Assembly (NCBI RefSeq): GCF_035920345.1
Contig: NZ_CP109149.1
Span: forward strand, 5,704,001 to 5,768,000
Origin: Nocardia vinacea
Lineage (GTDB): Bacteria; Actinomycetota; Actinomycetes; Mycobacteriales; Mycobacteriaceae
Length of the DNA stretch: 64,000 nt
Direction: 5' to 3'
This document shows, piece by piece, positions 19,322-35,177 of the stretch. A program made the translations under genes and the position numbers. Under the pieces are notes generated by a model. The model saw nothing but the letters and a program-made list of their open reading frames with translations, had not been told where the DNA came from and did not search any database. The first letter of the stretch is position 1, and each line of letters begins with the position of its first letter.

Positions 19322-20920
19322 CTAGCCGAGAAGTTCGCGGGTCGCGGTGTGCGCCGGGGCGGTGAGGACCGCTGTCGCCGAGCCGGATTCGACAATGCGG
19401 CCGTGGTCGAGGACGACGAGTTGGGAGCAGTGTCCGGTGACCAGCGTCATGTCGTGGGTGATGACGAGCAGACCGGTGTCGTGTTCGGCGCGGATGCGGT
19501 CCAGCAGGGTCATGATCGAGACGGCGGTGTTGTGGTCCAGGGCCGAGGTGATCTCGTCACAGACCAGCACGGCTGGTTCGGCCGCGAGCGCTCTGGCGAG
19601 TGCCACCCGCTGGCGTTGGCCGCCGGAGAGTTCGTGCGGGTAGCGGACGGCGAGCTCCGATGCGAGTTCGACCGAGTGGAGTAAGTCGGTAATGCCCTGC
19701 GCCAGTTGTCGTTTCGGTACACCGCCGATTCGGCGCAGCGGACGGCCGAGCGTCTGGGCGACGGTACGACGGGGATTGAGCGCGGACCGCGGGTTCTGCG
19801 TGACCAACTGAATACCATTGCGGCCGTTGCGGGCTCGTCGACGGGGGCCGATCGGGATCGACTCACTTCGCAGTTCCAGCGATCCGGTCGCTTCCCGGTG
19901 CAGACCGGCGATAACCCGCGCGAGAGTGGTCTTTCCAGCTCCTGACGCCCCCACTATGGCCAGTGCCGCGCCGCCCGGCAGCACGAAATCGATATCCGCC
20001 AATACCTCGTGCCCGTCGATCGAGGCACCGATGTCCTGGCCGCGCAGGACGGGTTCCGCGACCGGCTCGACCGTCCTGGAGCGCACAGCTACCGCACCCT
20101 GTCCTTCGATGGGCTGCAGAGCCGAGTCCCCGGTGTCGGCCGCTCGGCCGAGTGGCATCTCCGGAGCCATCGCCACCCGCACGATCGACGCGGCACCCCC
20201 GTTCGATCGCGGTGAATTCGATATACCCGAAAGAGTCGGCACAGGTGTGCGGCTGATTACATCGGTATGCACCGCACCCAACTCGACCACATCATCGGCG
20301 ATCGCATGAATAGTCGCGGTGTCGTGCCCGGACAGCAAGATTGCGGCAGAGCGCTGCGCGGCGATATCGGCCAGCAGACGGGCGATATCGGTGCGGAGGG
20401 AACCGTGCAGCCCGGCGAGGGGCTCGTCGAGAATGAGGATCCCGGTGTGACGAACCAGCGCACGCGCAAGGGCCACTCGGCGCTGTTGACCGCCGGAGAG
20501 TTCGCCGGGTCGGCGGCGCAGGTGTTCGTCGGATAGGCCGACCAGCTCCAGGGCTTCGGGCACGGCGGTGGCGGGGTGGCGAACCTCGTTCAGCAGGGAA
20601 CGCACACGCATCAACGGATTGAGGGCCGAACCAGGATCCTGTCCGACATAGGCGATGTGGTCCCGCCGGAACCGTTGCAGTGCGCCAGGATTCAACGCGA
20701 ATACGTCCTGCCCCGCAACCACGGCCGAACCCGCGGATCGCCGGGCTCCCGTTGGCAGATGCCCGAGCAGTGCCCGCATCAACGTGGTCTTGCCCGACCC
20801 CGACGGACCGGTCAGGGCGGTGACCTTACCCGCCGCGACGCTGAAACTGGTGGGCTCGAACAACTCCTGACCATTCGATCCGCACACGGTCAGCGCATCG
20901 ACGACTACAGACGCATTCAT
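19322..20920 (-). CDS. ABC transporter, double ATPase (DppD-DppF fusion type)
   Basis: 532 residues with two complete ATPase domains in one chain: Walker A GPSGSGKTT and signature LSGGQQRR in the first half, Walker A GASGAGKTT and signature LSGGQRQR in the second, each with its Walker B (LILDEP; LVCDEI). This is the fused form of the two ATPases of peptide/nickel/opine importers. A linker of about 60 residues near the middle is low-complexity. ATG 20920 overlaps the permease stop (ATGA), so it is the last gene of the importer operon under the divergent iron box. Confidence 0.93.
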   Translation of the reverse strand: MNASVVVDALTVCGSNGQELFEPTSFSVAAGKVTALTGPSGSGKTTLMRALLGHLPTGARRSAGSAVVAGQDVFALNPGALQRFRRDHIAYVGQDPGSALNPLMRVRSLLNEVRHPATAVPEALELVGLSDEHLRRRPGELSGGQQRRVALARALVRHTGILILDEPLAGLHGSLRTDIARLLADIAAQRSAAILLSGHDTATIHAIADDVVELGAVHTDVISRTPVPTLSGISNSPRSNGGAASIVRVAMAPEMPLGRAADTGDSALQPIEGQGAVAVRSRTVEPVAEPVLRGQDIGASIDGHEVLADIDFVLPGGAALAIVGASGAGKTTLARVIAGLHREATGSLELRSESIPIGPRRRARNGRNGIQLVTQNPRSALNPRRTVAQTLGRPLRRIGGVPKRQLAQGITDLLHSVELASELAVRYPHELSGGQRQRVALARALAAEPAVLVCDEITSALDHNTAVSIMTLLDRIRAEHDTGLLVITHDMTLVTGHCSQLVVLDHGRIVESGSATAVLTAPAHTATRELLG

Positions 20921-21840
20921 CCCCGCTCCTCCAACGCATTGCCTGCGACCGGCGACTCCGCGCCGGCCGGTCCCAGCGGCTCGGAACCGCGCGCCCTTCG
21001 TACAGCCCAGCGGCGCGGACGGTGCTGATCGAACGAGGTCACCGCGAGATTCACACTGACCGCGACCACCGCGATCGCCAGGCTCGGAGCCAGCACGGAC
21101 CAGGGGTTGAGAAGCATGCCGGAGGAGTTCTCGCGCACCATGACCGCCCAGTTGCTCGCGCCGAGCGTGGTCGGCAGTTGGAGGAACGATGCGGTGCTGA
21201 CCACATACACGCCCTCTACGAAGCGAAGACCGAGTTGCGCGGCCAAGACCTCGCGCAGATTCGGAATCACCTCACGGAATACCAAGTGCGGCAGAGTTTC
21301 GCCGCTCGCTTGGGCGGCCTCGACATAGCCGCTCGCAGCGACTCCCGCCGCGGCCGCCGCGAAAACTCGTGCACAGTACGGAGTTCCGAAGAGCAGAGCC
21401 ACCACAACGAGCCCGTAGACGCCCGCATCCGGCCAGGCCGTCAGCACCAGCAGGATCCCGAGTACGGCCGGAAGCAGGATCGCGAAATCGGCGACGCCCT
21501 CGATCATCGCACCGACCCGAGGACGCAGTGCCGCGATCGCGCCGAGCACGCACGACAACCCGGTCACCGCGACCGCGATCACACCCGCCAGCAACAGCAG
21601 ACCCCAACCGCCGTAGAGCAGTTGAGCCAGCACATCCCGTCCGAGTCGGTCCGTGCCCAATAAGGTGTCCGCGCCCGGCCGCCCGAATGGTATCCCGGCC
21701 GCCTCCTCAGCAGGCCGAGTCGCCGAACTCGGCCCGAGCGCGGCAGCGATAACCACCACCAGCGCAGGCAATACCGTGAGGAATCTCTTCACCTGCGACC
21801 TTCCGATCCGAGCCGCCGGATTCCGCTGCACATCGGTCAT
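20917..21840 (-). CDS. ABC transporter permease (DppC/NikC type)
   Basis: About 307 residues. N-terminal membrane helix (FLTVLPALVVVIAAALG), then LGTDRLGRDVLAQLLYGG, the typical DppC/OppC N-terminal signature, and the permease EAA-type loop YVEAAQASGETLPHLVFREV near residue 190. It forms the channel half of a peptide/nickel/opine importer. The frame extends upstream into the neighbouring gene, but ATG 21840 overlaps that gene's stop (ATGA), and MTDVQRNPAARI matches a cytoplasmic N-terminus. The C-terminus overlaps the ATPase start. Confidence 0.9.
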   Translation of the reverse strand: MTDVQRNPAARIGRSQVKRFLTVLPALVVVIAAALGPSSATRPAEEAAGIPFGRPGADTLLGTDRLGRDVLAQLLYGGWGLLLLAGVIAVAVTGLSCVLGAIAALRPRVGAMIEGVADFAILLPAVLGILLVLTAWPDAGVYGLVVVALLFGTPYCARVFAAAAAGVAASGYVEAAQASGETLPHLVFREVIPNLREVLAAQLGLRFVEGVYVVSTASFLQLPTTLGASNWAVMVRENSSGMLLNPWSVLAPSLAIAVVAVSVNLAVTSFDQHRPRRWAVRRARGSEPLGPAGAESPVAGNALEERG

Positions 21841-22760
21841 ATTCGCCCCCGCAATGCCCAGGCCCGAATCCCGTCCGCCATGGCCAGCATGGCCATGATG
21901 ACGATTCCGGTCAGCGCGACCACCGCGGCGATCAAGGAGGTGTCCCGATCGGCGACCGACCCCGCGAGCACCGCACCGAGTCCCGGGTAGTTGAAGATGG
22001 TCTCCACCACCAGCGCACCACCGAGCAGCATGCCGACCGTGGTCGCGAAACTCGCCACAATCGTCGGCAGCGCGAACGGCAGCACATGCCTGGTCAGCAC
22101 CGTGGTGGTCGAAAGTCCGTCCAGCACCGCACTTTCCACATGCGGCGAGCGCGCGGAGTCGAGCAGGGCCGCGCGCACCACCCGGGTGTTCCAGCCGGTC
22201 TGCGGTATCGCCAGTGCGAGTACGGGCAGCACCAGCATGTCCGGACTGGCCGGAAATCCGGAGCGCCCGGTAATGGTGACGGCGGGTAACCAACCGGCGC
22301 CCAAGGAGAACACCAGGATCAACAAGGTCGCGATGACGAACTCCGGAATCGCCGCCGCCGCAGTGGTAGTCGGCTGCAGGAACCGAGTAGCCGCACCCCG
22401 CCGTGTCGCCCACCAGCCGCCGAGCAGCAGCGACGCGACCACGGTCACCAGGAAGGCGAGCCCGCCGAGCAGCAGCGTCGGCGGAAACTTGTCGGCCAGC
22501 AGCTCATTGATCGATCGCCCACGCGCGGTGCGGCCGAAATCACCGGTCGCCACACCGGATATCCACTCGACGAACCGCACCGGCAGCGGCCGGTCCAGGC
22601 CCAGTTCGTGTTCCTTCGCCGCGATCTGCTCCGCGGTGGCGTCGCGGCCGAGCACCGCGCGGGCGGAATTGCCCGGCAGCAGATCGACGGCCGCGAACAC
22701 CGTCGCCAGCAGCGCGACCAGCAGGAGGACGCGCCGGATGAGGAGTCGGGCGAAGGACAT
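21837..22760 (-). CDS. ABC transporter permease (DppB/NikB type)
   Basis: About 307 residues. The start MSFARLLIRRVLLL leads straight into the first helix, as in DppB. The loop LGLDRPLPVRFVEWISGVATGDFGRT is family-typical, as is the C-terminal ETIFNYPGLGAVL. It pairs with the next permease to form the importer channel. ATG 22760 overlaps the stop of the binding-protein gene by one base (TGATG), so it is translationally coupled. The order SBP-permease-permease-ATPase is that of the peptide/nickel/opine family, which includes the staphylopine-metal importer CntABCDF. Confidence 0.9.
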   Translation of the reverse strand: MSFARLLIRRVLLLVALLATVFAAVDLLPGNSARAVLGRDATAEQIAAKEHELGLDRPLPVRFVEWISGVATGDFGRTARGRSINELLADKFPPTLLLGGLAFLVTVVASLLLGGWWATRRGAATRFLQPTTTAAAAIPEFVIATLLILVFSLGAGWLPAVTITGRSGFPASPDMLVLPVLALAIPQTGWNTRVVRAALLDSARSPHVESAVLDGLSTTTVLTRHVLPFALPTIVASFATTVGMLLGGALVVETIFNYPGLGAVLAGSVADRDTSLIAAVVALTGIVIMAMLAMADGIRAWALRGRI

Positions 22761-24277
22761 CACTCCGCGAGCCAGGCCCGTTCCAACTGCACCCTGGCGA
22801 AGCCGCCCAGGGTCGGCACATCGCGCACCCGGGATGTCGCGATATCGATACCGTCGGCCATGCCCCACACCAGGTAGCCGCCGCGGGCGTACTGGATCCG
22901 CTGTACGTCACGGCAGGCCGCCGCGTATTCCGAGTCACCGGGCGCGGCAAGGGCTTTCGCGGTGGCCGCATCGAATTCGGCATCCTTGAAGGCGGTTTCG
23001 TTGCGATTCGATGTCGAGGACATCAGCTTGGTCGCGAAGAACAGCGCGGAATCATTGGTGCCCCAGGAGACCGTGTAAAACGGCGCCTTCAACCAGGTCT
23101 GGTCGTAGAAGGTATTCGACTCCTGCGTCACGACATCGAGGCGCAGCCCGATATCGGCCAGCTGGGTGGCGATCACCTTCGCCGATTCGACCTCGCCAGG
23201 GGCCTCGGCCTTGGTGAGGAACTGGTAGCTGCGCCCGGTATCGAATCCGGCATCGCGCAGCAGCGTCTTCGCCCGGTCCACATCGCGGGTGCGCTGCGCA
23301 ATGGTGTTGTCGTACAACGGATCACCGGTACCGAGGATGTCGTTCGCGACGGTGCCGTACCCCGAATGCACCTGATTCACCAGGGCCTTGCGATCGATGC
23401 CCAACCGGATAGCCCCGCGCACCCGCACATCGGCGAACGGTCCGTCGGAGGTCCGCATCGCGACCCCGACCATGGTGTCGTTCGACCGCCGCACCACCCG
23501 CAGATCACCGCGCCCCTCGGCGGTACGTCCCGCGATCGCACCGACATTCGAGGCCAGGTCGATCTGCCCGCCGAGCACCGCATTGCCCAATGCCGTCACG
23601 CTGTCGAACATGGTGACCTCGATGGCATCCAGCAGTGGCGCCGGACCGTACCACCGATCGTTGCGCACCAGCCGGGCATTGCCACCCTGATAGGACTCCA
23701 ACCGGAACGGCCCGGTGCCGATGGCCTTTGTGAAATCGGTGGTGTCCTTCTTGACGGTGAAGGTCATCAACCGAACCAGTAGCGGTAGTTGCGAATTCGG
23801 TTCGGGCAGCGCGATCACCACCCGGTTCGGACCGTCCGGGGTGATGTCCTCAACGGCGGCAGGCATTTTCGACGCACCGCCGACGGTCCGCAGGCGACGC
23901 AGCGACCACACCACATCATCGGAGGTGACCGGGGTTCCGTCGTGGAAGGTCGCGCCGTCGGCGATGGTGAAACTCCAGCGGCGCCGCTGAGCGTCGGCTT
24001 CCCACCGACTGGAAAGGCGCGCAGCAACATTCGGGTTCGCGCCCGGTACCGTGAGCGCGTCGTACACCAGCGAGGTGATGAGGAAGTCGCTGTCATTGCT
24101 GAGATTCGCATGCGGATCGCGTTCGATTCGCGCCGCACTGCCGAGCGCACCGACCCGCAGGGTGCCACCGCGCCGAGCCGGGCCGTCCGAATTGCCGCCG
24201 TCCGAACATGCGGCGACCAACAGCACCGCGCCGACACCGAGTCCCGATCGCAGGAGTTGTCGTCGATTCCATTCCAT
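22760..24277 (-). CDS. Substrate-binding lipoprotein of a peptide/nickel/opine ABC importer
   Basis: About 505 residues. N-terminus MEWNRRQLLRSGLGVG has a twin-arginine-like pair, followed by lipobox VAAC, so it may be exported by Tat and lipidated. The family-5 solute-binding signature is visible: FHDGTPVTSDDVVWSLRR, GTGPFRLESYQGG, VRGAIRLGIDRKALV. These proteins bind peptides, nickel complexes or opine metallophores. ATG 24277 has a GAGGAAGG upstream. A 15/19 iron box lies 65 bases upstream (24342-24360), so the operon should be induced in low iron. A metal-metallophore complex is the likely cargo (inference). Confidence 0.9.
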   Translation of the reverse strand: MEWNRRQLLRSGLGVGAVLLVAACSDGGNSDGPARRGGTLRVGALGSAARIERDPHANLSNDSDFLITSLVYDALTVPGANPNVAARLSSRWEADAQRRRWSFTIADGATFHDGTPVTSDDVVWSLRRLRTVGGASKMPAAVEDITPDGPNRVVIALPEPNSQLPLLVRLMTFTVKKDTTDFTKAIGTGPFRLESYQGGNARLVRNDRWYGPAPLLDAIEVTMFDSVTALGNAVLGGQIDLASNVGAIAGRTAEGRGDLRVVRRSNDTMVGVAMRTSDGPFADVRVRGAIRLGIDRKALVNQVHSGYGTVANDILGTGDPLYDNTIAQRTRDVDRAKTLLRDAGFDTGRSYQFLTKAEAPGEVESAKVIATQLADIGLRLDVVTQESNTFYDQTWLKAPFYTVSWGTNDSALFFATKLMSSTSNRNETAFKDAEFDAATAKALAAPGDSEYAAACRDVQRIQYARGGYLVWGMADGIDIATSRVRDVPTLGGFARVQLERAWLAE

Positions 24278-24341
24278 GATGCTGCCTTCCTCGAGCCTTA
24301 ACGAGTTACCCACGCGCGACCGCGAACCCTAGCGAATCTAG

Positions 24342-24360
24342 CTAGGACAGGCTAGCCTAA
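24342..24360 (-). promoter_or_regulatory. IdeR/DtxR-like iron box, importer side
   Basis: CTAGGACAGGCTAGCCTAA matches the IdeR consensus TTAGGTTAGGCTAACCTAA at 15 of 19 positions, counted by hand. It lies 65 bases upstream of the binding-protein ATG, in the 315-base divergent gap (24278-24592). Confidence 0.75.
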
Positions 24361-24495
24361 TAGGGTTCCGGCCGTTGAGTTTTGCCGCACCACAGCTACC
24401 AGTCACCACCCCGAAGGCAATGCCGCAGATTAGCTACAGCTAGCTGCGGCAGGCTTCGACCCCAGTCATACGCGCTCGTTATTTTTATGACTCGC

Positions 24496-24514
24496 TTAGG
24501 TAAGCCTTGCTTAA
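24496..24514 (+). promoter_or_regulatory. IdeR/DtxR-like iron box, biosynthesis side
   Basis: TTAGGTAAGCCTTGCTTAA matches the IdeR consensus at 14 of 19 positions. It lies 79 bases upstream of the oxygenase GTG, so each divergent operon has its own box. Confidence 0.7.
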
Positions 24515-24592
24515 CGCGGCCGGACCCACTAGCTTCGCAGATCGAATCGTCATACCCCCGCTTTTCGACCCGATGCGAAGAAGGGACTCCTG

Positions 24593-25786
24593 GTGAAAGG
24601 CGTTCTCTCCGAATGTAAGACGCTTCACCCACTAGATATCGAACGGCGCGAGCTGCCGACCACCGCCGGTCATGCGGTGCGTACTCTCGCCCATGAGATA
24701 TGTGTCACAGTCGATGCCCGGCCGGATGGCACCGCCGATATCGCGCGCACGCTGACCGATCCGGCATTGCTCGAGCAAATCGATGCCCGCGTCGGCGAGT
24801 TGCCCGACGCGGTACGCGTCGCCCTGCGACCGCCCGCCACCGCGGCCGGTGCCACCATCGTCGGCAAACTGCCTTTGACCGATGCCGAATTCGGCCCGAC
24901 CCCGCCGAGCTGGGTCGAGGCGGCCCGCTGGAGTGGTGAAATCGACCGCCGCGCGAGCTCATTCGAACTCGATATCGCAATGCTGCTGCTCGCCCGCAGC
25001 GCGGGTGAGCCGTTCGGCTGGCAGGGCCAGCAGGGCGGGCGACTGGTCAACAACATCGTGCCCTCGCCCGGTCACGAACACGAACAGTCAGGCGCGAGTA
25101 GCAAAACCCTGCTCAGCCCGCATACCGAGGACGCCTTCCACCCGGACCGGGCAAACCTGTTGTTGTTGGCGTGTCTGCGCAATCCGGACGGCGTCGGCAC
25201 CACCGTGTCCTCGGTGCGTCGGACCGAGCTCTCCGATGACGAGCGCCGACTGCTGGGCACGCCGACCCTGCCGATCCTGCCCGACGTCTCCTACGGCACC
25301 GGTCACGAGCGCTATTCCGCACTTCCGTTGCCGACGCTGTGGAGCGCCGAATCAGCTGGCGACACAGCAGATTTGACGCTTCGTTACGATCCGGCATACA
25401 CCCCGCTCGACGATGCCGGTACCGAATTCCGGCTGGCATACGCGCGCCTCACCACGGAGCTCGAACGCGTCTGCATCACCGCCGCACTGGCCCCCGGCGA
25501 GCTATTGCTGGTGGACAATGACGTGGCCGTGCACGGTCGGGTACCGTTCACCGCGCGCTACGACGGCACCGACCGCTGGCTCAAGCGCGTCAATGTCCGC
25601 CTGCCCGAACGCCGACGGCGGGCCGCCGAGGCCGACGAAAATGGTTATGGGCAACGGATCGTCGCCCCGTTCCGAGCGACAAGCAACCCGCTCGCGATCG
25701 ACGGTGCACCGGCCCGGGCTACCACCCGGACCGCAGTAAGGCTGGATACGACACAACATGATCGAGGAACCGTTGAGCACTCGTGA
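24593..25786 (+). CDS. Fe(II)/2-oxoglutarate oxygenase of the clavaminate-synthase / VioC / AsnO type
   Basis: 397 residues. The facial triad is visible: H177-T-E179 in SPHTEDAFHP and distal H314 in DNDVAVHGR, with R328 or R332 as 2-oxoglutarate-binding Arg. The TauD-like fold with the HTEDAFHP motif is typical of the branch that hydroxylates free or tethered amino acids (asparagine, arginine and similar). GTG 24593 has GAAGGGA six bases upstream. First gene of the operon behind an iron box. Its co-substrate, 2-oxoglutarate, is what the next enzyme would release. The substrate is unknown; a beta-hydroxylated amino acid is the natural guess. It overlaps the dehydrogenase gene by up to 29 bases. 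Confidence 0.85.
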   Translation: MKGVLSECKTLHPLDIERRELPTTAGHAVRTLAHEICVTVDARPDGTADIARTLTDPALLEQIDARVGELPDAVRVALRPPATAAGATIVGKLPLTDAEFGPTPPSWVEAARWSGEIDRRASSFELDIAMLLLARSAGEPFGWQGQQGGRLVNNIVPSPGHEHEQSGASSKTLLSPHTEDAFHPDRANLLLLACLRNPDGVGTTVSSVRRTELSDDERRLLGTPTLPILPDVSYGTGHERYSALPLPTLWSAESAGDTADLTLRYDPAYTPLDDAGTEFRLAYARLTTELERVCITAALAPGELLLVDNDVAVHGRVPFTARYDGTDRWLKRVNVRLPERRRRAAEADENGYGQRIVAPFRATSNPLAIDGAPARATTRTAVRLDTTQHDRGTVEHS

Positions 25787-26768
25787 CCGGAGCACACCAC
25801 TGCGTGTGCTGAGCCGCAGCGATCTCGCCGACGTGCCAATCACGCCCGCCGATGTGGTGCGCGCGGTAGAGGAAGCGTATCTCGCCTTCGCCGCGGGTGA
25901 TTCGGATAATCCGCGCAAACTCAGCGTCGCGAATCCGGACGGCTGGTCGGTGGCTTACGCCATGCTCGGGCGCGACGGCCGTCGCCGGGTGGTCGCGATG
26001 AAGACCTCCTACAAATTCGATCCCGGCCACGACCGCAGCACCAAGCGCTACTACACGACCATCACGCTCTACGACGACAGCACCGGCGCGCCGATCGCCA
26101 TGATGGACTGCGCCAGGGTCGGCGCGCTGCGCACCCCGGCGGTGTCGGCGCTGCTGGTGCGCGAGACCGCACGGCGCGGCGCGGAGAGCGTGCTGCTGAT
26201 CGGCACCGGCACCCAGGGCCGAAATGCCCTGCCGCACTTGCTTGCCGCCAATCCGCAGCTGCGCAAGTTGATGCTGTACGGCACCCATCCGGAGGGTCTG
26301 GCGGCGGTGCGCGACTACCTCGCCGAATACAACCCGCACGCATTGCTGGAGACCGTCGACGATCCGCGCGCGGCCGCCGGTACCGCCGATGTGGTGTTGG
26401 CGACGGCCGGACCGGGTACCGAGGTCGGGATCGAATCCGAGGATCTCGCACCGGGATCCACCGTGGTGCTCGTCGGCTACGGTTTGGCGCCGTCCACGCT
26501 GGTCGACGCCGATCGCGTAATCGCAACCAGCGCCGAGCAAATGGCGCTGACCGGCACCGATATGGCCGGTCCCGACGGCAGACTGCGGACCGTCGATGCC
26601 GAACTGCCACAGATCCTGAGCCGTCGCGCGATCGCCAGGCGCTCCGACGACGAGCGGATCTTCGTCTACAACAGCGGGTTGGTGCTGACCGATATCGCCG
26701 TCGCGCACGCACTCGCCGAACGAGCCATTGCCGAGGGCCGCGGCACGGAGGTGCCCCTGTGGGACTAG
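25758..26768 (+). CDS. SbnB-like dehydrogenase (ornithine cyclodeaminase / mu-crystallin family)
   Basis: 336 residues. NAD-binding glycine motif GTGTQG at 149-154, catalytic-type Lys82 (AMKTSY), and the family sequence YYTTITLYDDSTGAPIAMMD before the Rossmann fold. In the staphyloferrin B pathway SbnB oxidatively splits N-(1-amino-1-carboxy-2-ethyl)glutamate into L-2,3-diaminopropionate and 2-oxoglutarate. The neighbouring SbnA-like gene supports that role over ornithine cyclodeaminase. ATG 25758 overlaps the oxygenase gene by 29 bases; TTG 25773, with GAGGA upstream, is a good alternative start. The stop lies within the decarboxylase start region. Confidence 0.85.
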   Translation: MIEEPLSTRDRSTPLRVLSRSDLADVPITPADVVRAVEEAYLAFAAGDSDNPRKLSVANPDGWSVAYAMLGRDGRRRVVAMKTSYKFDPGHDRSTKRYYTTITLYDDSTGAPIAMMDCARVGALRTPAVSALLVRETARRGAESVLLIGTGTQGRNALPHLLAANPQLRKLMLYGTHPEGLAAVRDYLAEYNPHALLETVDDPRAAAGTADVVLATAGPGTEVGIESEDLAPGSTVVLVGYGLAPSTLVDADRVIATSAEQMALTGTDMAGPDGRLRTVDAELPQILSRRAIARRSDDERIFVYNSGLVLTDIAVAHALAERAIAEGRGTEVPLWD

Positions 26769-28279
26769 ACATCGGCGCCGTCGAGTTCGACAAGAAGGCG
26801 CCCGCCCCCGGCACCGCCGAACCCGACGGCACGCTGCTGTTCGACGATGGCTCGACCCGCGACAAGGTCAAACTCGGCGATCATCGGTCGAGTACCGAAA
26901 CTGCCCCCGATCCCGCTGTGCTGGCGGCAGTGCAGGGGCTGCTGAGCATCTGCGCGCCTGCCCTGCCCGCTCACACCGACGACTGGGAGCGCAGGCTCCT
27001 CGCCGATCCGAATCTGCTCGGCGATATCGCCTTTGCGATCGGCGGGCCGTTCCATGTGATGTATCCGTCACGGGTCGCGGTGAATATCAATGGATTTCAG
27101 CGGGCGTTCGAGCAGGCCGGTGTGGATGGGGTTGTCTACTTCGGCAAGAAGGCCAACAAGGCGGCCTGCGTTGCTCGTGCCTGCGCCGAAAATGGTGCGG
27201 GCGTCGATGTTTCCAGTGTGGGCGAGCTGAATGCCGCACTGTCACAGGGTGTCCGCGGTGACGAGCTGATGGTCACCGGTCCCGCCAAATCCGACGATCT
27301 CCTTTGGCTTGCCGTGCGGCACCGCGCACTGATCGCCGTGGACAGTCTCGACGAGCTCGACCGATTGGCCGCATTCACCACCCCGGCCGCCGCGGCCCGC
27401 GTACTACTTCGCGTGCTGCCCAACGGATCCGCGAGCCGATTCGGCATGACCGCCGGGGAATTGGACCGCGCGATTTCGGTGATCGGCGCATCCGGCACGG
27501 TCGGTCACGAATCGATTCGATTGCACGGCTTCAGCTTCCACCTGTCCGGCTACGATGCCGTCGCGCGCGCCGAACAGGCTGACAAATTGATCACCCGCTG
27601 CCTGGATGCGCGCACACTGGGCCATCCGGCCGGCACCATCTCCATCGGCGGTGGATTCGGCGTCGACTATGTGCCCGCGAGCGCCTGGTCGGAGTTCAGC
27701 GATCACGCGAACGGTCAGTGGTTCCACGCCGGGAAGTCCTTCGATTCGTACTACCCCTACCACTTCCCGGCACCCGGCCCGGCCATGCTCACGACCGTCC
27801 TCGAGCACAACGCCCTAGCGGAACGGTTGCGCGACAACGATATCCGGCTCGCCGTCGAACCCGGCCGGGCACTGCTCGACCGCGCCGGATCCAGCGTCTT
27901 CCGGGTGCAGGGCAGCAAGACCCGCCATATCGACGGTCACCCCTACCGACTGCTCACCGTCGACGGCACCAGCCTGAGCCTGTCCGAGCAGTGGTTCGAC
28001 AGTGAATACCTCCCCGATCCGATGCTGTGGCCGCCGCGCCCCGGCGAGCTCACCCCGACCTGCGTCGGTGCGGCCAGCTGTCTGGAGTCCGACATGCTCA
28101 GCTGGCGGCGCATCCCGTTACCGAGACGGGCCGAGGTCGGCGATCTGCTGATCTATCCGAATACCGCCGGTTACCAAATGGATTCGAACGAATCAGCCTT
28201 TCACGAACTGCCGATTCCGCCGAAGGTGGTGCTGCACGACACCGGTGATCGACTCCGCTGGACGCTCGACGCCGGATGA
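26759..28279 (+). CDS. Type III PLP-dependent decarboxylase (SbnH / diaminopimelate-ornithine decarboxylase family)
   Basis: 506 residues. Alanine-racemase-like barrel: PLP Lys in YFGKKANKA (K131 by alignment with Y-x-x-K-A-N), HGFSFHLSG, glycine loop ISIGGGFGVDY, and EPGRAL; the C-terminal domain carries GAASCLESDML and YPNTAGYQMD. In the sbn cluster SbnH decarboxylates the citryl-diaminopropionate intermediate to an ethylenediamine moiety. Here the substrate could be a similar conjugate, a hydroxylated amino acid, or diaminopropionate itself. GTG 26759 has GGAGGTG upstream and overlaps the preceding gene by ten bases. It is longer than usual family members because of about 90 extra N-terminal residues. 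Confidence 0.85.
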   Translation: MGLDIGAVEFDKKAPAPGTAEPDGTLLFDDGSTRDKVKLGDHRSSTETAPDPAVLAAVQGLLSICAPALPAHTDDWERRLLADPNLLGDIAFAIGGPFHVMYPSRVAVNINGFQRAFEQAGVDGVVYFGKKANKAACVARACAENGAGVDVSSVGELNAALSQGVRGDELMVTGPAKSDDLLWLAVRHRALIAVDSLDELDRLAAFTTPAAAARVLLRVLPNGSASRFGMTAGELDRAISVIGASGTVGHESIRLHGFSFHLSGYDAVARAEQADKLITRCLDARTLGHPAGTISIGGGFGVDYVPASAWSEFSDHANGQWFHAGKSFDSYYPYHFPAPGPAMLTTVLEHNALAERLRDNDIRLAVEPGRALLDRAGSSVFRVQGSKTRHIDGHPYRLLTVDGTSLSLSEQWFDSEYLPDPMLWPPRPGELTPTCVGAASCLESDMLSWRRIPLPRRAEVGDLLIYPNTAGYQMDSNESAFHELPIPPKVVLHDTGDRLRWTLDAG

Positions 28280-28332
28280 TCCGGCACCCCTATCGACCAA
28301 TACCCCTTACGGCCCCGAACGAGGAGACCTCC

Positions 28333-29364
28333 ATGCCGCTCGTCACGCGCGTGACGGATCTGATCGGTCGCACCCCGCTATTCGAACTGGCGACCACTGC
28401 GACCGGCACCCGGCTGCTGCTCAAACTCGAGCAGTTCAATCCGACGGGTGCGGCCAAGATCAGGATGGCGCGCGCGATGATCGACGATGCGGAGCGTCGG
28501 GGTTTGCTGCGCGATGGCGGGCATATTATCGAGTCGACATCCGGGAATACCGGGCTCGGCCTCGCGGTAGTAGCTGCCGAACGTGGGTATCGCTTCACCG
28601 CAGTGGTCGATCACCACGCATGTAAGGACAAGCTGCGCGCGATGCGAGCAATGGGTGCGGAATTGGTATTCGTCGCCGATGACGGTGACGACAACCTGGC
28701 CACCTCGGCGCGGGAAGACCTGGCCGAGGCGATGGCGGCCGGACAGTCGGACGCATACTTCACCGAACAGCACAACAACGACGCGAACGCGGTCGGCTAC
28801 TACGCCGTGGCCGAAGAATTGCTGGAAGACGTGGAGCGCGTCGATATCCTGCTCTCCGCGGTGGGCACCGGCGGTTCGCTGTTCGGCACCGCGACCCGAC
28901 TGCGCCAACTCGGCTGCACGCCACGGGTCATCGGCGTGGAGCCCGTCGGATCGATCGCCTTCGGCGGGCCGGGCGGCCCGTACTGGCAGTCCGGTACCGG
29001 CACCCCGCCCGGTGCCACCATCGGCACCGCCGTGGACTATTCGCTGCTCGATGAGGGCGTCAAGGTTTCCGATGTCGCGGCCTTCGCCGCCGCTCGCGCG
29101 GTCGCGGCCAAGCTGGGCCTGATGATCGGCGGCTCCGCGGGCGGCTCGGTACACGCCGCGCTCACCCGCCTCGAGGAATTCCCGCCCGGCTCGACCGTGG
29201 TCACCCTCGTCTGTGATGGCGGCGAGAAGTATCTCGATACGGTCTTCGACGACGAGTGGATGCGCGAACGCGATCTTCTCGACGCCGCCACCGAACGCGA
29301 TGTGCACGCCATGCTCGACCGCTACGCTCCCACCCGACGTGACCAACTCGTGGAAGCGCGATGA
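28333..29364 (+). CDS. SbnA-like PLP synthase (cysteine synthase family; diaminopropionate pathway)
   Basis: 343 residues. Fold-type II PLP enzyme: Lys42 in FNPTGAAKIR, substrate loop ESTSGNTGLGLA, phosphate loop GTGGSLFG, and CDGGEKYLDTVFDDEWM near the C-terminus, close in pattern to SbnA. SbnA joins O-phospho-L-serine and L-glutamate. Where cysteine synthases have SVKDR, this protein has AAKIR, so the residues beside the PLP Lys differ. ATG 28333 has AGGAG ten bases upstream. Together with the SbnB-like gene this should give L-2,3-diaminopropionate. An ordinary cysteine synthase is possible but unlikely in this context. Confidence 0.85.
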   Translation: MPLVTRVTDLIGRTPLFELATTATGTRLLLKLEQFNPTGAAKIRMARAMIDDAERRGLLRDGGHIIESTSGNTGLGLAVVAAERGYRFTAVVDHHACKDKLRAMRAMGAELVFVADDGDDNLATSAREDLAEAMAAGQSDAYFTEQHNNDANAVGYYAVAEELLEDVERVDILLSAVGTGGSLFGTATRLRQLGCTPRVIGVEPVGSIAFGGPGGPYWQSGTGTPPGATIGTAVDYSLLDEGVKVSDVAAFAAARAVAAKLGLMIGGSAGGSVHAALTRLEEFPPGSTVVTLVCDGGEKYLDTVFDDEWMRERDLLDAATERDVHAMLDRYAPTRRDQLVEAR

Positions 29365-29426
29365 AGCACGCGCGCGCTTTCGATCACCGTTGCGCGACAC
29401 CTCATATGTCTGAAATGATCACCTCG

Positions 29427-29445
29427 TTAGGGTTGCCTAACCCAT
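29427..29445 (-). promoter_or_regulatory. IdeR/DtxR-like iron box upstream of the MATE gene
   Basis: Read on the minus strand, ATGGGTTAGGCAACCCTAA matches the IdeR consensus at 15 of 19 positions. It lies 70 bases upstream of the MATE ATG, in the 151-base gap after the SbnA-like gene, so MATE and the next gene may form a separate iron-controlled unit. Confidence 0.75.
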
Positions 29446-29515
29446 ATGAAGCTCAGCGACGAGTTGGGACGAGGCTCATGGCGATCGATTTCGGGATTCG
29501 ACCGGTGGAGGTGCG

Positions 29516-30922
29516 ATGGTGAATCTGTCCACCTTCCGTGCCGATGGCCGACAGCTCACCGCGCTGGCGGCACCGATCGCACTCACCCAACTCGCACAGA
29601 TCGCGGTATCCACTACCAATATCGCCCTGATGGGCACGCTCGGTGTACGCGAGGTCGCCGCGGGCGGGCTGGCGATGGTGCTGTTCAACCAGATTCGCAC
29701 CATGTGCGTCGGGCTGATCACCGGGACCGGGAATCAGATCGCTTCCTCGGTGAGTGCGGCAGATAAACGTGGTGAGTCCGCGGCCGGGGAGGTCCGCGAT
29801 ATCGTCCGCTCGAGTTTCCTGATCGCCACCTTCGCCGGAATCATCGGCGGCGCAGTGCTGATCGGACTCGGCTGGGCCCTGCAATGGCTCGGCCAGGACG
29901 CGGGCGTACTCGCCGACGCGCGACCGCTCATGCTCGCCCTCGCGCCCGGACTGCTGCCCTGCCTGTGGTTCCAAGTACTGCGGCAGTACACCGTCGGTAT
30001 GCAGCGTCCGCAGGCCCTGCTGCTGGTCACCCTCGGCTCGGTGGCGCTGAATCTCGTACTGGCCCTTACCTTCATGCACGGCTGGGTCGGACTGCCCGTA
30101 CTGGGACTGACCGGCGTCGGCGTCGCGACCTCACTGGTCTTCCTGATCACCTTCGGCGTCTTCTTCGCGATGGTGCGCGCCGATGCGGCACTCGGCGCCA
30201 CTCTGCCGCTGCGTCCGTGGCCGGTGCACATGCCGACCATCCGAGCCGAGCTCAAACTCGGTGCGCCGATCGCGCTCACCTATGGTTCGGAAGCGGGCAT
30301 GTTTTCCGTGCTCGCCCTGGTGATGGGCAGTATCGGACCGGCCGCGCTGGCCGCGCACAATGTGGTCTACCAGATCATCTACATCGTCTTCCAGGTCGCG
30401 ATCGGCCTGTCGCACGGCGCGTCCATCCTGGTCAGCCATGCCGTCGCGCGTGACGAATACGGCCACGCCCGTGCGCTGGCCTGGTTGGCGCTGCAGCATG
30501 CGGGCATCGTTGCCGCGGTCACCGGCGTGGTTTATGTCGCCGCGCCGAAACTCGTGCTGAGCCCCTTCCTCGAACCGGGCGACACCGCGACGATCGAACT
30601 GGCCCGCTCGCTGCTGCTCATCGGCATCGTGCTCCAATTCTTCGATGCCGCACAGAACATCGGCACCGGCCTGCTGCGTGGTCTGAAGGAAACCAAGGCG
30701 GGCTTCCGCCTGTCCCTGGTCGGCTACTGGCTCGTCGGCCTGCCCACAGCCTTGCTGCTGGCCTTCCCGCTCGGCCTAGGCGCCGCGGGCGTCTGGTGGG
30801 GTCTTACCGCGGGTCTGGCCAGCACGGCCGTTCTCATGCTCCGCCGCTACTTCGCCCTGCTCGACGCCGCCGCCTCCACCCACCCCCATCCCCTCCCACA
30901 ATCCCTACCCACCCCTTCCTGA
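29516..30922 (+). CDS. MATE-family efflux transporter
   Basis: 468 residues, twelve-helix type. Features of the NorM/DinF-like family: APIALTQLAQIAVSTTNIALMGTLG in the first helices (broken here), an equivalent second-half APIALTYGSEAGMFS, and LGVREVAAGGLA. MATE proteins export small molecules using proton or sodium gradients. ATG 29516 has GGAGGTGCG directly upstream. With its own iron box and its place after the SbnA/SbnB/decarboxylase genes, it most likely exports the product made by the operon, a role that in the staphyloferrin B cluster is played by the MFS protein SbnD. The C-terminus is Pro/His-rich. Confidence 0.9.
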   Translation: MVNLSTFRADGRQLTALAAPIALTQLAQIAVSTTNIALMGTLGVREVAAGGLAMVLFNQIRTMCVGLITGTGNQIASSVSAADKRGESAAGEVRDIVRSSFLIATFAGIIGGAVLIGLGWALQWLGQDAGVLADARPLMLALAPGLLPCLWFQVLRQYTVGMQRPQALLLVTLGSVALNLVLALTFMHGWVGLPVLGLTGVGVATSLVFLITFGVFFAMVRADAALGATLPLRPWPVHMPTIRAELKLGAPIALTYGSEAGMFSVLALVMGSIGPAALAAHNVVYQIIYIVFQVAIGLSHGASILVSHAVARDEYGHARALAWLALQHAGIVAAVTGVVYVAAPKLVLSPFLEPGDTATIELARSLLLIGIVLQFFDAAQNIGTGLLRGLKETKAGFRLSLVGYWLVGLPTALLLAFPLGLGAAGVWWGLTAGLASTAVLMLRRYFALLDAAASTHPHPLPQSLPTPS

Positions 30923-30961
30923 CCTCGTAAAATCCGGACCTAATGGGCGGCGGAAAGTGTT

Positions 30962-31903
30962 GTGCAGCAACCTGATAGCGTGCGGGGAATGCGGCAGAGC
31001 CTGGCATTGAGTTGTGAGCGGATCTCCGCTGAACTGCTCGACCACTTCGACGGGGTCGGGATGGTGCGCGGCGAGTACGTGTTCCGCGCGGCCGGGAAAT
31101 ATCCGACACCCGAATCGGTTTCGGGTTATCTCGTGCCATATCTGCGCCATATTGCGAAGCGGGCCGGCGGAACGATCTGGTATCGCACCATGGAAGCCGA
31201 TACCGCCGAATGCAATATCCTCGACGGCGTCGAAGAGATCATCGACGAGCCGCATAAACTGCTCGGCCTGCGCGGTATTCGACGAGCGCGTCGCTTTCCC
31301 GACGCATTCGTCGCCGAACTCGAGGGCATTGCGCAGGTGCGTGACGAGGGCGCGGATATCGGCGTGCTTTTCCCGTTCGTCACCTATGTCGACGAATTGC
31401 AGTGGGCCATCGAGCAAACCAGGGCAGTGATCGGCGACTGCCCGATCGCAACCATGATCGAGATCCCGTCGCTGCTGCTCGAGGTCGACCGGGTCGTGAC
31501 CACCGGGGTGTCACGGGTGGTGATCGGCTGCAACGATCTGTCCTCGCTGCTGCTCGGCCAGGCGCGCGCCAGCCTACGCCCGGTTCGCCCGGTTCCGCCG
31601 CTGCTGCGCGCGATCGAGCGCGTCACCATGGTGGCCGCCGCCGCGGGCGTGCGGACCGCGGTCGCGGGTTATCTGCATCCGGACCTGCTCGCGGCGTGTG
31701 CGAACCTCGGCGTCGACGAATGCGTGCTGCACTACTCCGATCTGCCCGAAGTGCTGGGTGAGCAGTTCGCGGACCTGCCGGATCTCGATGTGCTGCAAGC
31801 GATCAAGCGTAAGACGCGTGCCGCGATCGCGATATACGAGGCAGAGCGGGCGGCCGGGTCCGATCCCGACCACCCGCACGCCCATCAGACGTTGACGCCG
31901 TAA
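30962..31903 (+). CDS. Stand-alone PEP-utilizing TIM-barrel enzyme lacking the catalytic Cys
   Basis: 313 residues, matching only the C-terminal PEP-binding barrel (PF02896 type) of Enzyme I / PEP synthase. Arg36 (GMVRGEY), Arg75 (WYRTME) and Arg104 (LGLRGIR) occupy the PEP-binding Arg positions; E167 (MIEIPS) and D193 (GCNDLSSLLLG) match the metal ligands. The Cys of the CGELAGD motif is replaced by Ala235 (AGYLHPD). No swivelling phosphohistidine or ATP-grasp domain is fused. It should therefore bind PEP, pyruvate or oxaloacetate without normal proton or phosphoryl transfer. A role like the aldolase-fold citrate synthase SbnG is an attractive inference. GTG 30962, 39 bases after MATE; it overlaps TerD convergently by 19 bases. 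Confidence 0.8.
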   Translation: MQQPDSVRGMRQSLALSCERISAELLDHFDGVGMVRGEYVFRAAGKYPTPESVSGYLVPYLRHIAKRAGGTIWYRTMEADTAECNILDGVEEIIDEPHKLLGLRGIRRARRFPDAFVAELEGIAQVRDEGADIGVLFPFVTYVDELQWAIEQTRAVIGDCPIATMIEIPSLLLEVDRVVTTGVSRVVIGCNDLSSLLLGQARASLRPVRPVPPLLRAIERVTMVAAAAGVRTAVAGYLHPDLLAACANLGVDECVLHYSDLPEVLGEQFADLPDLDVLQAIKRKTRAAIAIYEAERAAGSDPDHPHAHQTLTP

Positions 31904-32579: not shown

Positions 32580-33056
32580 CTAGCGGCTCCACGCGCGCAG
32601 TGTCTGCACGCGCCCTTCGAGCGCATGCAATTCGCTCGCGTCGAGGACGGTGCGCTCGATTCCGTGCGCCACCGCGAAGGCCGACTGCCGGTGGTCATCG
32701 ATGACTTCGACATCGATCTGGACCGCGACATAGTCTGTCGCACCGGGCATTTCCTCGGCGATAACCCTCGCCTGCCCGCGCGCACACAGCGCGACATTGC
32801 CACCGCCGAGAATCAGCAGTGCGACATCGGGCCGTTCGCGCAAGCGGGCCAGCGAACCGCGATCGAATTTCAGGCTGAGCAGAATCCGCCGATCATCCGC
32901 GCGCACCGGCCAGGACACCGGAATCGCATGCGGCGCTGGGTCGGTGGTGACCAGCACCGCGATCGTCTCCTGGGGCCATTCCGGGAGTACGTCCAGTTCG
33001 GGATGATCGGCCGTAGAGTGGTCTTGACGTTGCACGGGGCTCGCTCCGGCTGCCAT
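32580..33056 (-). CDS. Pyridoxamine 5'-phosphate oxidase-like (FMN split-barrel) protein
   Basis: About 158 residues. The split-barrel pattern is seen in ETIAVLVTTDPAPHAIPVSWPVRADDRRILLS split across two strands, followed by FDRGSLARLRERPDVALLILG and VAVQIDVEVIDDHR. Family members bind FMN, F420 or haem and act as small oxidoreductases; the ligand cannot be told from the sequence. ATG 33056 has AGAGGTGA upstream and gives a sensible N-terminus (MAAGASPVQRQDH). It is the last gene before a 660-base stretch without a large gene. The 119 bases downstream to TerD hold nothing obvious. Confidence 0.82.
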   Translation of the reverse strand: MAAGASPVQRQDHSTADHPELDVLPEWPQETIAVLVTTDPAPHAIPVSWPVRADDRRILLSLKFDRGSLARLRERPDVALLILGGGNVALCARGQARVIAEEMPGATDYVAVQIDVEVIDDHRQSAFAVAHGIERTVLDASELHALEGRVQTLRAWSR

Positions 33057-33255
33057 GTTCGTCACCTCTTGATCGCTGCAACGCGGCGGGCTGTGCCACG
33101 TTGCCTGCAAGTCTAAGGTGCTGTGGCCCTTGTTCGCTGGCGCTGCGACCTTTGTCCGAAGTGCTCACAGGCACCTCTCAGGACACCGATACGGCGTCGC
33201 TGGTGATGGGCGGCGCTCTGGCCGAGTCGCGGGCCATCTCCTCGCTCGGGCATTA

Positions 33256-33274
33256 TGCGGTAAGGCTACCCTTA
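33256..33274 (+). promoter_or_regulatory. Possible fourth iron box, orphan
   Basis: TGCGGTAAGGCTACCCTTA matches the IdeR consensus at 14 of 19 positions. It lies inside the 33057-33716 gap, 200 bases from the FMN-barrel start and 265 bases before a tiny ORF. Its target is unclear. Confidence 0.4.
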
Positions 33275-33658: not shown

Positions 33659-33716
33659 GTTGTAGCGCGGCACCACGGGACATTTCGGCACACATACGGA
33701 CGTGGGGAGCAGACAC

Positions 33717-35177
33717 ATGGTTGATATGCGGGCAAGGAATTCCGGCGCGGTCGATATGGTGGCGTGGCCGACGGCAGGCAATCTCGTCGTCTCGGCCGCG
33801 ATACTGGACGACCTGGGCTATCTGCGCGGCGAGTTGGCGGCCGCGGAGGTGCCGTTCCTACTGATTCGCGATGGCGGACATCGGCTGGCACTGGCCGCGG
33901 ATGCCGCGCACCAGACGATGGTGCGTCGGGTGACTGCCACCGTGATTGCCGCGGGTTTCGCATGTGCCGAGGTGCAACACAATGTTTTTCGGCTGAGTCG
34001 CGATGCCGATCCGGCGCATTACGTGGATCTGGAGCTCTGGGAGTACCACGGCGACATCGTCGAATGCCCGCGGCCGAATGCGTTCACCCGCAATGTCTTC
34101 GACCTCGCCGATGTCGAGCACACGGAAGTTCGCCTGTTCGACCGCAATTGGCCGACATTGACGGATATGTTCGCGCCACAGCCGACCGATGTCGGCTTCG
34201 ATATCGATCTGGTGTTCTCCTGGGTCGATGGCACCGATCCCGAATTCCGTGCCCGCCGTGCGGGAATGCTGGCCCAGGTCGTGGTCGGCGAGGGCGATGA
34301 CGCGGATGCTCGGATCCGCCAAATCGACGAACTGAAGTACGCACTGCGCTCGGTGGACAAGAACGCGCCGTGGATTCGGCGGATCTTCATCGCGACCGAT
34401 TCCGCGGTGCCGGAATGGCTCGACGAACATCCGCGGGTGACGGTGGTGCGCGCGGTCGATCACTTCAGCGATATCAGCGGGCTGCCCACCTTCAATTCCC
34501 ATGCGGTGGAATGCCAACTGCAACATATCGATGGGCTCAGCGAGCATTTCCTGTACTCGAACGACGATATGTTCTTCGCCCGGCCGGTGCGTCCGTCGAT
34601 GTTCTTCAGCCCGGCCGGGGTCAGCCGGTTCATCGAGGCAGGCACCCGGATCGGACCGGGTCGAAATAACGAGCGGCGCAGTGGTTTCGAGAATGCGGCG
34701 CGGGTGAACCGGGAATTGCTGGCCGGGCGGTTCGGACATGTCATCACCCGGCATCTGGAACACACCCCGGTTCCGTTGCGGCGCAGCGTATTACTCGAGA
34801 TGGAGCAGGAGTTCGCGACCGACTTCGCACGGACCAGGGCGAGCAGATTCCGTGCGGCCACCGATATTTCGGTGACGAATTCGCTGTACCACTACTACGC
34901 CATGCTCACCGGACGCGCGGTGCCGCAGGAGATGGCGCGGATGCGCTATGTCGACACCACGAGTCAACGCGGGCTCGCACTGCTCGACGTCCTCGCCGTA
35001 CATCGTGATGTCGACTTCTTCTGCCTGAACGACGGCAGTTTCCCCGAGGTCGCGGAGGCCGACCGGGTGCGCGCGGTGTCGGAGTTCCTGTCCGCCTACT
35101 TCCCGGACCGCGCGCCATGGGAGCGGATCAGTGCACGGCCTCGTCATCTTCCGGAGTCTGCGCCGGGCGCCGCATGA
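33717..35177 (+). CDS. Stealth-family sugar-phosphate transferase
   Basis: 486 residues. The four conserved Stealth regions are present: CR1 [15 protein letters not shown] (about 160), CR2 [25 protein letters not shown] (about 205, split here for length), CR3 around [14 protein letters not shown] (about 280) and CR4 [10 protein letters not shown] near the C-terminus. These enzymes transfer hexose-1-phosphate from UDP-sugars onto capsular or cell-wall glycans. The N-terminal about 150 residues are an extra domain ([15 protein letters not shown]). ATG 33717 follows GGGGAG. Its 3' end overlaps the convergent phosphodiesterase by 50 bases. No other glycan genes are nearby. Confidence 0.9.

Follow-up and report, generated by a model that had tools for sequence, protein, structure and literature searches.

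We analyzed a 64,000-nucleotide stretch of DNA from Nocardia vinacea (contig NZ_CP109149.1, positions 5,704,001 to 5,768,000 of the forward strand), referred to here as the window, whose host genome is a single contig of 10.36 Mb. Ten genes between positions 19322 and 31903 are the subject of this study. An original prediction had described them as an iron-controlled, SbnA/SbnB-based metallophore locus without a visible siderophore synthetase; all the genes that it named were present as open reading frames where it had placed them, with the domains that it had claimed. Nine of the ten resemble published gene clusters for ethylenediaminesuccinic acid hydroxyarginine (EDHA), an aminopolycarboxylate siderophore. 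The ten genes are as follows (ABC, ATP-binding cassette; PLP, pyridoxal 5′-phosphate; OCD, ornithine cyclodeaminase; PEP, phosphoenolpyruvate).

19322..20920, minus strand: ABC importer ATPase with two fused ATPase domains, Nik/Dpp/opine type (PF00005 twice; NikE/NikD/CntF/CntD-like, with all listed models below cut-off)
20917..21840, minus strand: ABC importer permease, C type (PF00528 at residues 289-463 of a long open reading frame; start placed from the R. opacus annotation)
21837..22868, minus strand: ABC importer permease, B type (PF00528; Opp2B/NikB-like, below cut-off)
22760..24313, minus strand: substrate-binding protein of family 5 (SBP_bac_5; PF00496, 222 bits)
24593..25786, plus strand: Fe(II)/2-oxoglutarate oxygenase, clavaminate-synthase type, arginine beta-hydroxylase kind (GntD model, 232 bits; PDB 4m23 and 2wbq)
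25758..26768, plus strand: SbnB-like OCD-family dehydrogenase (TIGR03944 best, below cut-off; best PDB match 4m54)
26759..28279, plus strand: type III PLP decarboxylase (PF02784; KKAN and the C-terminal Cys/Asp motif conserved)
28276..29364, plus strand: SbnA-like PLP beta-replacement synthase (PALP; PF00291; TIGR03945 the best NCBIfam model, below cut-off; Lys61 and TSGNTG conserved)
29516..30922, plus strand: MATE-family exporter (PF01554; TIGR00797, 159 bits, cut-off 147)
30962..31903, plus strand: PEP-utilizers_C barrel, a clade-specific neighbor outside the nine-gene system

As listed, the reading frame of the C-type permease runs from 20917 to 22413 (498 amino acids), and its first ~190 codons share 577 bp with the B-type permease gene. 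Translation probably begins near 21840; the corresponding permease genes of Rhodococcus opacus overlap by 4 bp.

The nine genes from 19322 to 30922 have the same order and orientation in Streptomyces sp. MA5143a (locus L080) and Streptomyces scabiei 87.22 (L072): ATPase, two permeases, and binding protein on the minus strand, then oxygenase, SbnB-like enzyme, decarboxylase, SbnA-like enzyme, and MATE exporter on the plus strand, without the barrel. Proteins of the window are 47 to 68% identical to those of the two Streptomyces loci. According to an excerpt of a paper citing Spohn 2018 (PMC10702961), MA5143a is the EDHA reference strain, N. brasiliensis is among the known carriers, and EDHA clusters are iron-responsive. 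The S. scabiei EDHA cluster is given, in an excerpt of a second paper (PMC8914351), as scab_5231-5311, an 11-kb region missed by antiSMASH. This range corresponds to nine genes if the locus tags step by ten, and L072 was equated with it by length and gene number.

Loci of other genera were collected by scanning named genomes with a Streptomyces-led SbnB alignment. We took the best 80 of 246 stretches, which is no census, and added two plasmid records, giving 82 loci. The exact nine-gene pattern of the window was present in 63 of the 82. Among the 67 full-length loci (66 from the scan plus L068), the five core genes (oxygenase to MATE exporter) were present in all 67, the binding protein in 65, each permease in 64, and the ATPase in 63. 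All nine genes also occur on the large linear plasmid pRoPD630_1 of R. opacus PD630 (L068), where the importer lies upstream in the same orientation and is not divergent.

Within Nocardia, 35 genomes with an SbnB-like locus formed the panel, and 30 loci were taken at length (all but those of G002, G004, G013, G015, and G025). The five core genes had the same order in 30 of 30 loci, with the MATE gene of L030 cut by a contig end. A gene for an MltB-like protein flanked 24 of the 30 loci and, except in a single case, was accompanied by enolase; among the remaining six, one was cut by a contig end. The oxygenase was present in 147 of 148 Nocardia genomes, including that of the window (E value of ≤1e-20). 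The sole exception was G013, in which the locus is broken at a contig end. The match was only 52% in G429 and only weak in G002, and a number of matches had an in-frame stop within the aligned stretch. In a wider draw from the class, at the same E value threshold, an SbnB-like protein was found in 9 of 296 genomes and 3 of 114 genera; that of the window shares 90% identity with a protein from a Nocardia farcinica record. Rhizobium and Agrobacterium plasmid records contain SbnB-like proteins that are 45 to 48% identical, some beside genes labeled as Y4yA-family PLP enzymes or alanine racemases, and these loci possibly represent related pathways.

The set thus travels together, as the original prediction had supposed when it called for a search for co-occurrence: core genes in order in all 30 Nocardia loci and nine genes in 63 of 82 loci elsewhere. 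Its status as an undescribed system did not survive, since the nine genes match those of MA5143a and S. scabiei; the type of system is already known, and EDHA clusters have been reported earlier from Nocardia. According to an excerpt of PMC11888242, the EDHA family BGC0002567 includes 328 Nocardia windows, and an excerpt of PMC10920908 describes for N. mangyaensis an antiSMASH “aminopolycarboxylic acid metallophore” with an iron-type site and a MATE gene. An SbnB homologue beside a nonribosomal peptide synthetase gene appears, from the excerpt of PMC11479980, to belong to a locus other than that of the window. EDHA-type clusters can be overlooked by cluster finders, being without familiar signature enzymes, and their recognition here puts an EDHA-type pathway in nearly every sampled Nocardia genome.

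The tenth gene, for the barrel, had been counted as part of the system and does not travel with the other nine. A close homologue (93 to 100% identical) was found in 5 of 148 Nocardia genomes, which form one close group, next to the MATE gene each time, and in none of the 67 full-length loci of other genera. On these counts we rejected the barrel as a general pathway component; it may be a clade-specific add-on. The CGQAG loop of PEP synthase 8a8e reads AGYLH in the stand-alone barrel, which thereby lacks the loop cysteine that we take to be catalytic in PEP synthase.

Sites for an IdeR-type regulator were scored against two consensus forms, the published degenerate form TWAGGTWAGSCTWACCTWA (from an excerpt of PMC9505556, where up to five mismatches are allowed) and TTAGGTTAGSCTAACCTAA. 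Three candidate boxes were found at the locus, with no strand assigned.

24342..24360: IdeR-type box upstream of the importer operon, 4 mismatches to either form
24496..24514: IdeR-type box upstream of the biosynthetic operon, 2 mismatches to TWAGGTWAGSCTWACCTWA and 4 to TTAGGTTAGSCTAACCTAA
29427..29445: IdeR-type box upstream of the MATE gene, 4 mismatches to either form

With TTAGGTTAGSCTAACCTAA at ≤4 mismatches, these were the only sites in the 64 kb, one for each promoter (importer, biosynthesis, and exporter). One hundred shuffled windows contained none at this threshold and 0.03 site per window at 5 mismatches. The shuffle control for TWAGGTWAGSCTWACCTWA gave 0.43 site per window, all at 5 mismatches. 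A site with ≤6 mismatches lay upstream of the oxygenase gene in 30 of 30 Nocardia loci (21 at ≤4) and in 83 of 84 Streptomyces-group loci (79 at ≤4), compared with 24 of 5,943 control stretches. The Streptomyces-group figures, here and in the residue counts below, include four duplicates (L049 to L052 are L133, L120, L100, and L138), which reduces the group from 85 loci to 81; at the oxygenase promoter, one locus was not scored because it was too short. In R. opacus (L068), the best site before the oxygenase gene had 5 mismatches. Only 2 of the 30 other Nocardia loci have a site before the MATE gene (≤5 mismatches), so that this box is not general in the genus. The genome encodes two regulators of the DtxR family. 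With boxes before the importer, the biosynthetic operon, and the exporter, far above background, the iron control foreseen in the original prediction is well supported at the level of sequence.

A looser pattern had five sites in the whole genome, each on both strands. Two of them fall in the intergenic region between the importer and biosynthetic operons; the pattern had been widened with the window sites already in view, so these two matches are not independent. The other three (L172, L173, and L174) comprise one ahead of a thioesterase/ketosynthase pair, close to a lysine/ornithine-monooxygenase-like gene; one next to a FecCD gene and a gene for an FhuF-like protein that scores below the Pfam cut-off; and one ahead of a DUF2470 gene. 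A further IdeR-type site in the window, at 33256-33274 (3 mismatches to TWAGGTWAGSCTWACCTWA, with an overlapping second site at 5), lies between a PNPOx-like gene (32580-33110, minus strand) and a Stealth-domain gene (33702-35177, plus strand), either of which may be iron regulated. Similar sites outside the cluster were seen in several other Nocardia loci.

The importer belongs to the Nik/Cnt/opine class with a family 5 binding protein, the best solved relative of which is AgaA; further relatives include peptide, heme, and nickel binders. An importer of this class would also suit a nickel, cobalt, or zinc metallophore of the opine (staphylopine-like) type. However, the CntA, CntC, CntD, and CntF models all scored far below their NCBIfam cut-offs, the regulatory sites are of the iron type, and the synteny is with clusters described as iron-responsive. 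The best matches to a Zur site in six oxygenase-bearing loci (nine-gene or core) were weak, with 3 to 5 mismatches; L059, a near-identical relative standing in for the window, had 3 at best. We rejected a staphylopine or opine metallophore as extremely unlikely on the evidence of the Cnt models and the iron-type sites.

The best family model for the oxygenase was GntD (L-enduracididine hydroxylase; 232 bits, cut-off 345), and the VioC model was also below its cut-off. The nearest solved structures were the L-arginine beta-hydroxylases 4m23 (6.7e-46) and 2wbq (6.1e-32), and the matches also included the nonheme iron hydroxylase 6daw and CmnC. We take 4m23, 2wbq, and 6daw to be OrfP, VioC, and MppO, which presumably act on arginine or its cyclic relatives. 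Conservation of residues was assessed after exclusion of proteins shorter than 75% of the query, leaving 102 oxygenases, 122 SbnB-like proteins, 117 SbnA-like proteins, and 120 decarboxylases. The HTE/H iron residues, Asp266, and the final Arg were kept in 29 of 29 Nocardia oxygenases (that of the window included) and in 70 to 71 of 73 from other loci. Asp266 aligned with Asp268 of VioC, the residue that presumably holds the guanidine group. We propose that the enzyme hydroxylates arginine or a guanidino amino acid related to it. An oxygenase of the arginine hydroxylase type would fit the hydroxyarginine arm of EDHA.

The original prediction had the SbnA-like and SbnB-like enzymes make L-2,3-diaminopropionate, with release of 2-oxoglutarate. 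Their identity was borne out in part: TIGR03945 (SbnA) and TIGR03944 (SbnB) were the top NCBIfam models for the synthase and the dehydrogenase, respectively, but both scored below the curated cut-offs (239 bits against 350 and 100 bits against 327). Compared with ordinary enzymes of their families, without a tree, the dehydrogenase was nearest to SbnB entry 4m54 (5.9e-16) in the PDB, and the synthase was nearest to SbnA in NCBIfam and to cystathionine beta-synthases and cysteine synthases in the PDB. The PLP lysines and substrate loops of the synthase and the decarboxylase were conserved in nearly all sequences. In the SbnB-like enzyme, Gly replaces the Asp that follows the second Rossmann strand in 4m54 (31 of 31 Nocardia proteins, 85 of 86 others, and 5 of 5 from oxygenase-free loci described below), which may reflect a shift toward NADPH and the reductive direction. 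Because the pair falls below the SbnA and SbnB cut-offs, the plain reading as free diaminopropionate plus 2-oxoglutarate is doubtful.

The same enzymes could nevertheless be read as a staphyloferrin B-like route, in which free L-2,3-diaminopropionate and 2-oxoglutarate are joined by an unlinked synthetase. The top NCBIfam models and the SbnB entry as best structural match of the dehydrogenase are what this route would predict. The scores below cut-off count against it, as does the replaced Asp, which is Gly in 121 of 122 relatives. The absence of a synthetase for NRPS-independent siderophores, noted originally for 12.5 kb, extends to the entire genome: IucA/IucC (PF04183) had no match in its 10.36 Mb, and the same search was positive in 2 of 14 control genomes. 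The nine-gene set also recurs without a synthetase among its members. We rejected a staphyloferrin B route with a hidden synthetase on these grounds and consider it very unlikely.

A synthetase, hidden or unlinked, is probably not needed, because PLP-dependent C-N bond formation by beta-replacement, decarboxylation, and reductive amination could suffice to build EDHA. The name EDHA implies succinate, ethylenediamine, and hydroxyarginine, and on chemical grounds we infer the order of steps, the substrates, and the exact product; the metal is likewise putative. The oxygenase would beta-hydroxylate arginine or else a similar amino acid with a guanidino group. From a serine derivative, the SbnA-like synthase would form a PLP-aminoacrylate and add to it the nitrogen of an amino acid, which would yield an N-(2-amino-2-carboxyethyl) amino acid. 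Removal of the carboxylate that came from serine, by the decarboxylase, would then leave a free amine on an ethylenediamine bridge. Acting as an imine reductase, the SbnB-like enzyme would couple this amine to a 2-oxo acid and reduce the imine. The resulting ethylenediamine would bear succinate on one arm and hydroxyarginine on the other. The MATE protein would export this chelator, and the family 5 binding protein and ABC importer would return the metal complex where an importer is encoded. Of the earlier proposal that a small chelator is made, exported, and reimported, a chelator pathway with exporter, importer, and IdeR-type boxes is supported, and the formation of free diaminopropionate is in doubt.

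We concluded, with a probability of roughly 87%, that the locus is a Nocardia version of the published EDHA type of aminopolycarboxylate siderophore cluster, with an IdeR/DmdR-type regulator as its probable repressor under iron-rich conditions. This reading draws on observed gene identities, synteny with named EDHA strains, IdeR-type boxes, and conserved catalytic motifs; the action of the repressor is a prediction. Several points weigh against it. The structure of EDHA was taken from its name and from citing papers, not from the primary paper, and the step order and reductive role of the SbnB-like enzyme were arrived at by reasoning. Among solved structures, the synthase reached 163 bits with cystathionine beta-synthases/cysteine synthases and 140 bits with SbnA. 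No site with ≤3 mismatches to TTAGGTTAGSCTAACCTAA was found in the window, and the count for the looser pattern is not, taken alone, above background, because the reversed control gave three sites against five. A binding protein with at least 50% identity was not found in 10 of the 36 Nocardia genomes, that of the window included, in which the importer was sought; these 10 include N. farcinica, and most are drafts. Lastly, the oxygenase is ~51% identical to those of MA5143a and S. scabiei and has N153, V232, and S233 where the Streptomyces-group enzymes have mostly His, Asp, and Ala; among the 29 Nocardia oxygenases, N153 and S233 are fixed and V232 is nearly so.

Given this identity and these differing conserved positions, the product may not be exactly EDHA. 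The cluster could be of the same kind but make, in Nocardia, an EDHA relative with another hydroxy amino acid arm or metal preference. That GntD and not VioC is the best oxygenase model, and is itself below cut-off, points the same way. However, the catalytic residues and Asp266 are common to the Nocardia oxygenases and nearly all others, and the other four biosynthesis and export genes retain their order and motifs. We regard such a relative as possible but unlikely.

Under the EDHA-type reading, the linkage of the importer bears on who uses the chelate. The importer was adjacent to the biosynthetic genes in 15 of the 36 genomes and elsewhere in 10 (L150 to L159), with the binding protein, both permeases, and the ATPase together, some cut by contig ends; linkage in G013 was ambiguous owing to contig ends. 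All 10 relocated importers had an IdeR-type site (4 to 5 mismatches, scored without a shuffle control) 25 to 142 bp upstream of the binding-protein match. In G004 and G015, whose oxygenase loci are not among the 30 taken at length, the DNA examined ahead of the importer, which lies on a different contig, contained no oxygenase match. This scatter (adjacent, elsewhere, or none), set against a near-universal oxygenase, is possibly a new observation; the excerpts consulted on other points do not mention it. We suggest tentatively, as a proposal still open to considerable doubt, that the pathway is a near-universal core trait of Nocardia whose importer is freely relocated or lost, so that producer and importer are uncoupled and some species use an unrelated transporter or make the chelator for a purpose other than their own iron supply.

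Four Nocardia genomes (G031, G017, G008, and G025) have, in addition to the iron-boxed, oxygenase-bearing version, a second locus (L054 to L057) with SbnB-like, decarboxylase, SbnA-like, and MATE genes and no oxygenase match. These second loci have Zur-type sites with 1 to 2 mismatches (scored without a shuffle control). In L054 and L055, the site immediately precedes the SbnB-like gene; in L056 and L057, it lies ~5 kb upstream, on the far side of importer-like matches. None of the four has an IdeR-type site at ≤4 mismatches. A similar locus of another genus (L053) has neither type of site. The cluster for [S,S]-ethylenediaminedisuccinic acid (EDDS) of Amycolatopsis japonicum is Zur controlled, according to an excerpt of PMC6103462. 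The iron-boxed and Zur-boxed pair mirrors the published split between iron-responsive EDHA and zinc-controlled EDDS, with EDDS taken by description. It offers a clean comparison, within each of four genomes, of an iron-boxed version with the oxygenase and a Zur-boxed version without it.

Among known systems, the staphylopine cnt locus shares with the window the importer class (family 5 binding protein, Nik/Cnt) and differs in that the Cnt models score far below cut-off and the sites of the window are of the iron type. The staphyloferrin B locus sbnA-I of Staphylococcus aureus shares the SbnA-like, SbnB-like, and decarboxylase-type enzymes, whereas the window lacks its type of synthetase, scores below cut-off with the SbnA and SbnB models, and has an extra oxygenase of the arginine hydroxylase type. 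The [S,S]-EDDS cluster, the subject of Spohn et al. 2016, reportedly has SbnA-like and SbnB-like enzymes. In its Zur control it resembles the oxygenase-free Nocardia loci with Zur-type sites; the window differs in its oxygenase and IdeR-type boxes, a comparison made by description and not by gene alignment. The EDHA cluster of MA5143a and S. scabiei (MIBiG BGC0002567) differs from the window in protein sequence, in lacking the extra IdeR-type box before the MATE gene and the clade-specific barrel gene, and in that the importer is often unlinked or not found in other Nocardia genomes. It matches the window in its nine genes, their order, and their orientation, and in both Streptomyces strains the region separating the operons contains an IdeR-type site with 4 mismatches.

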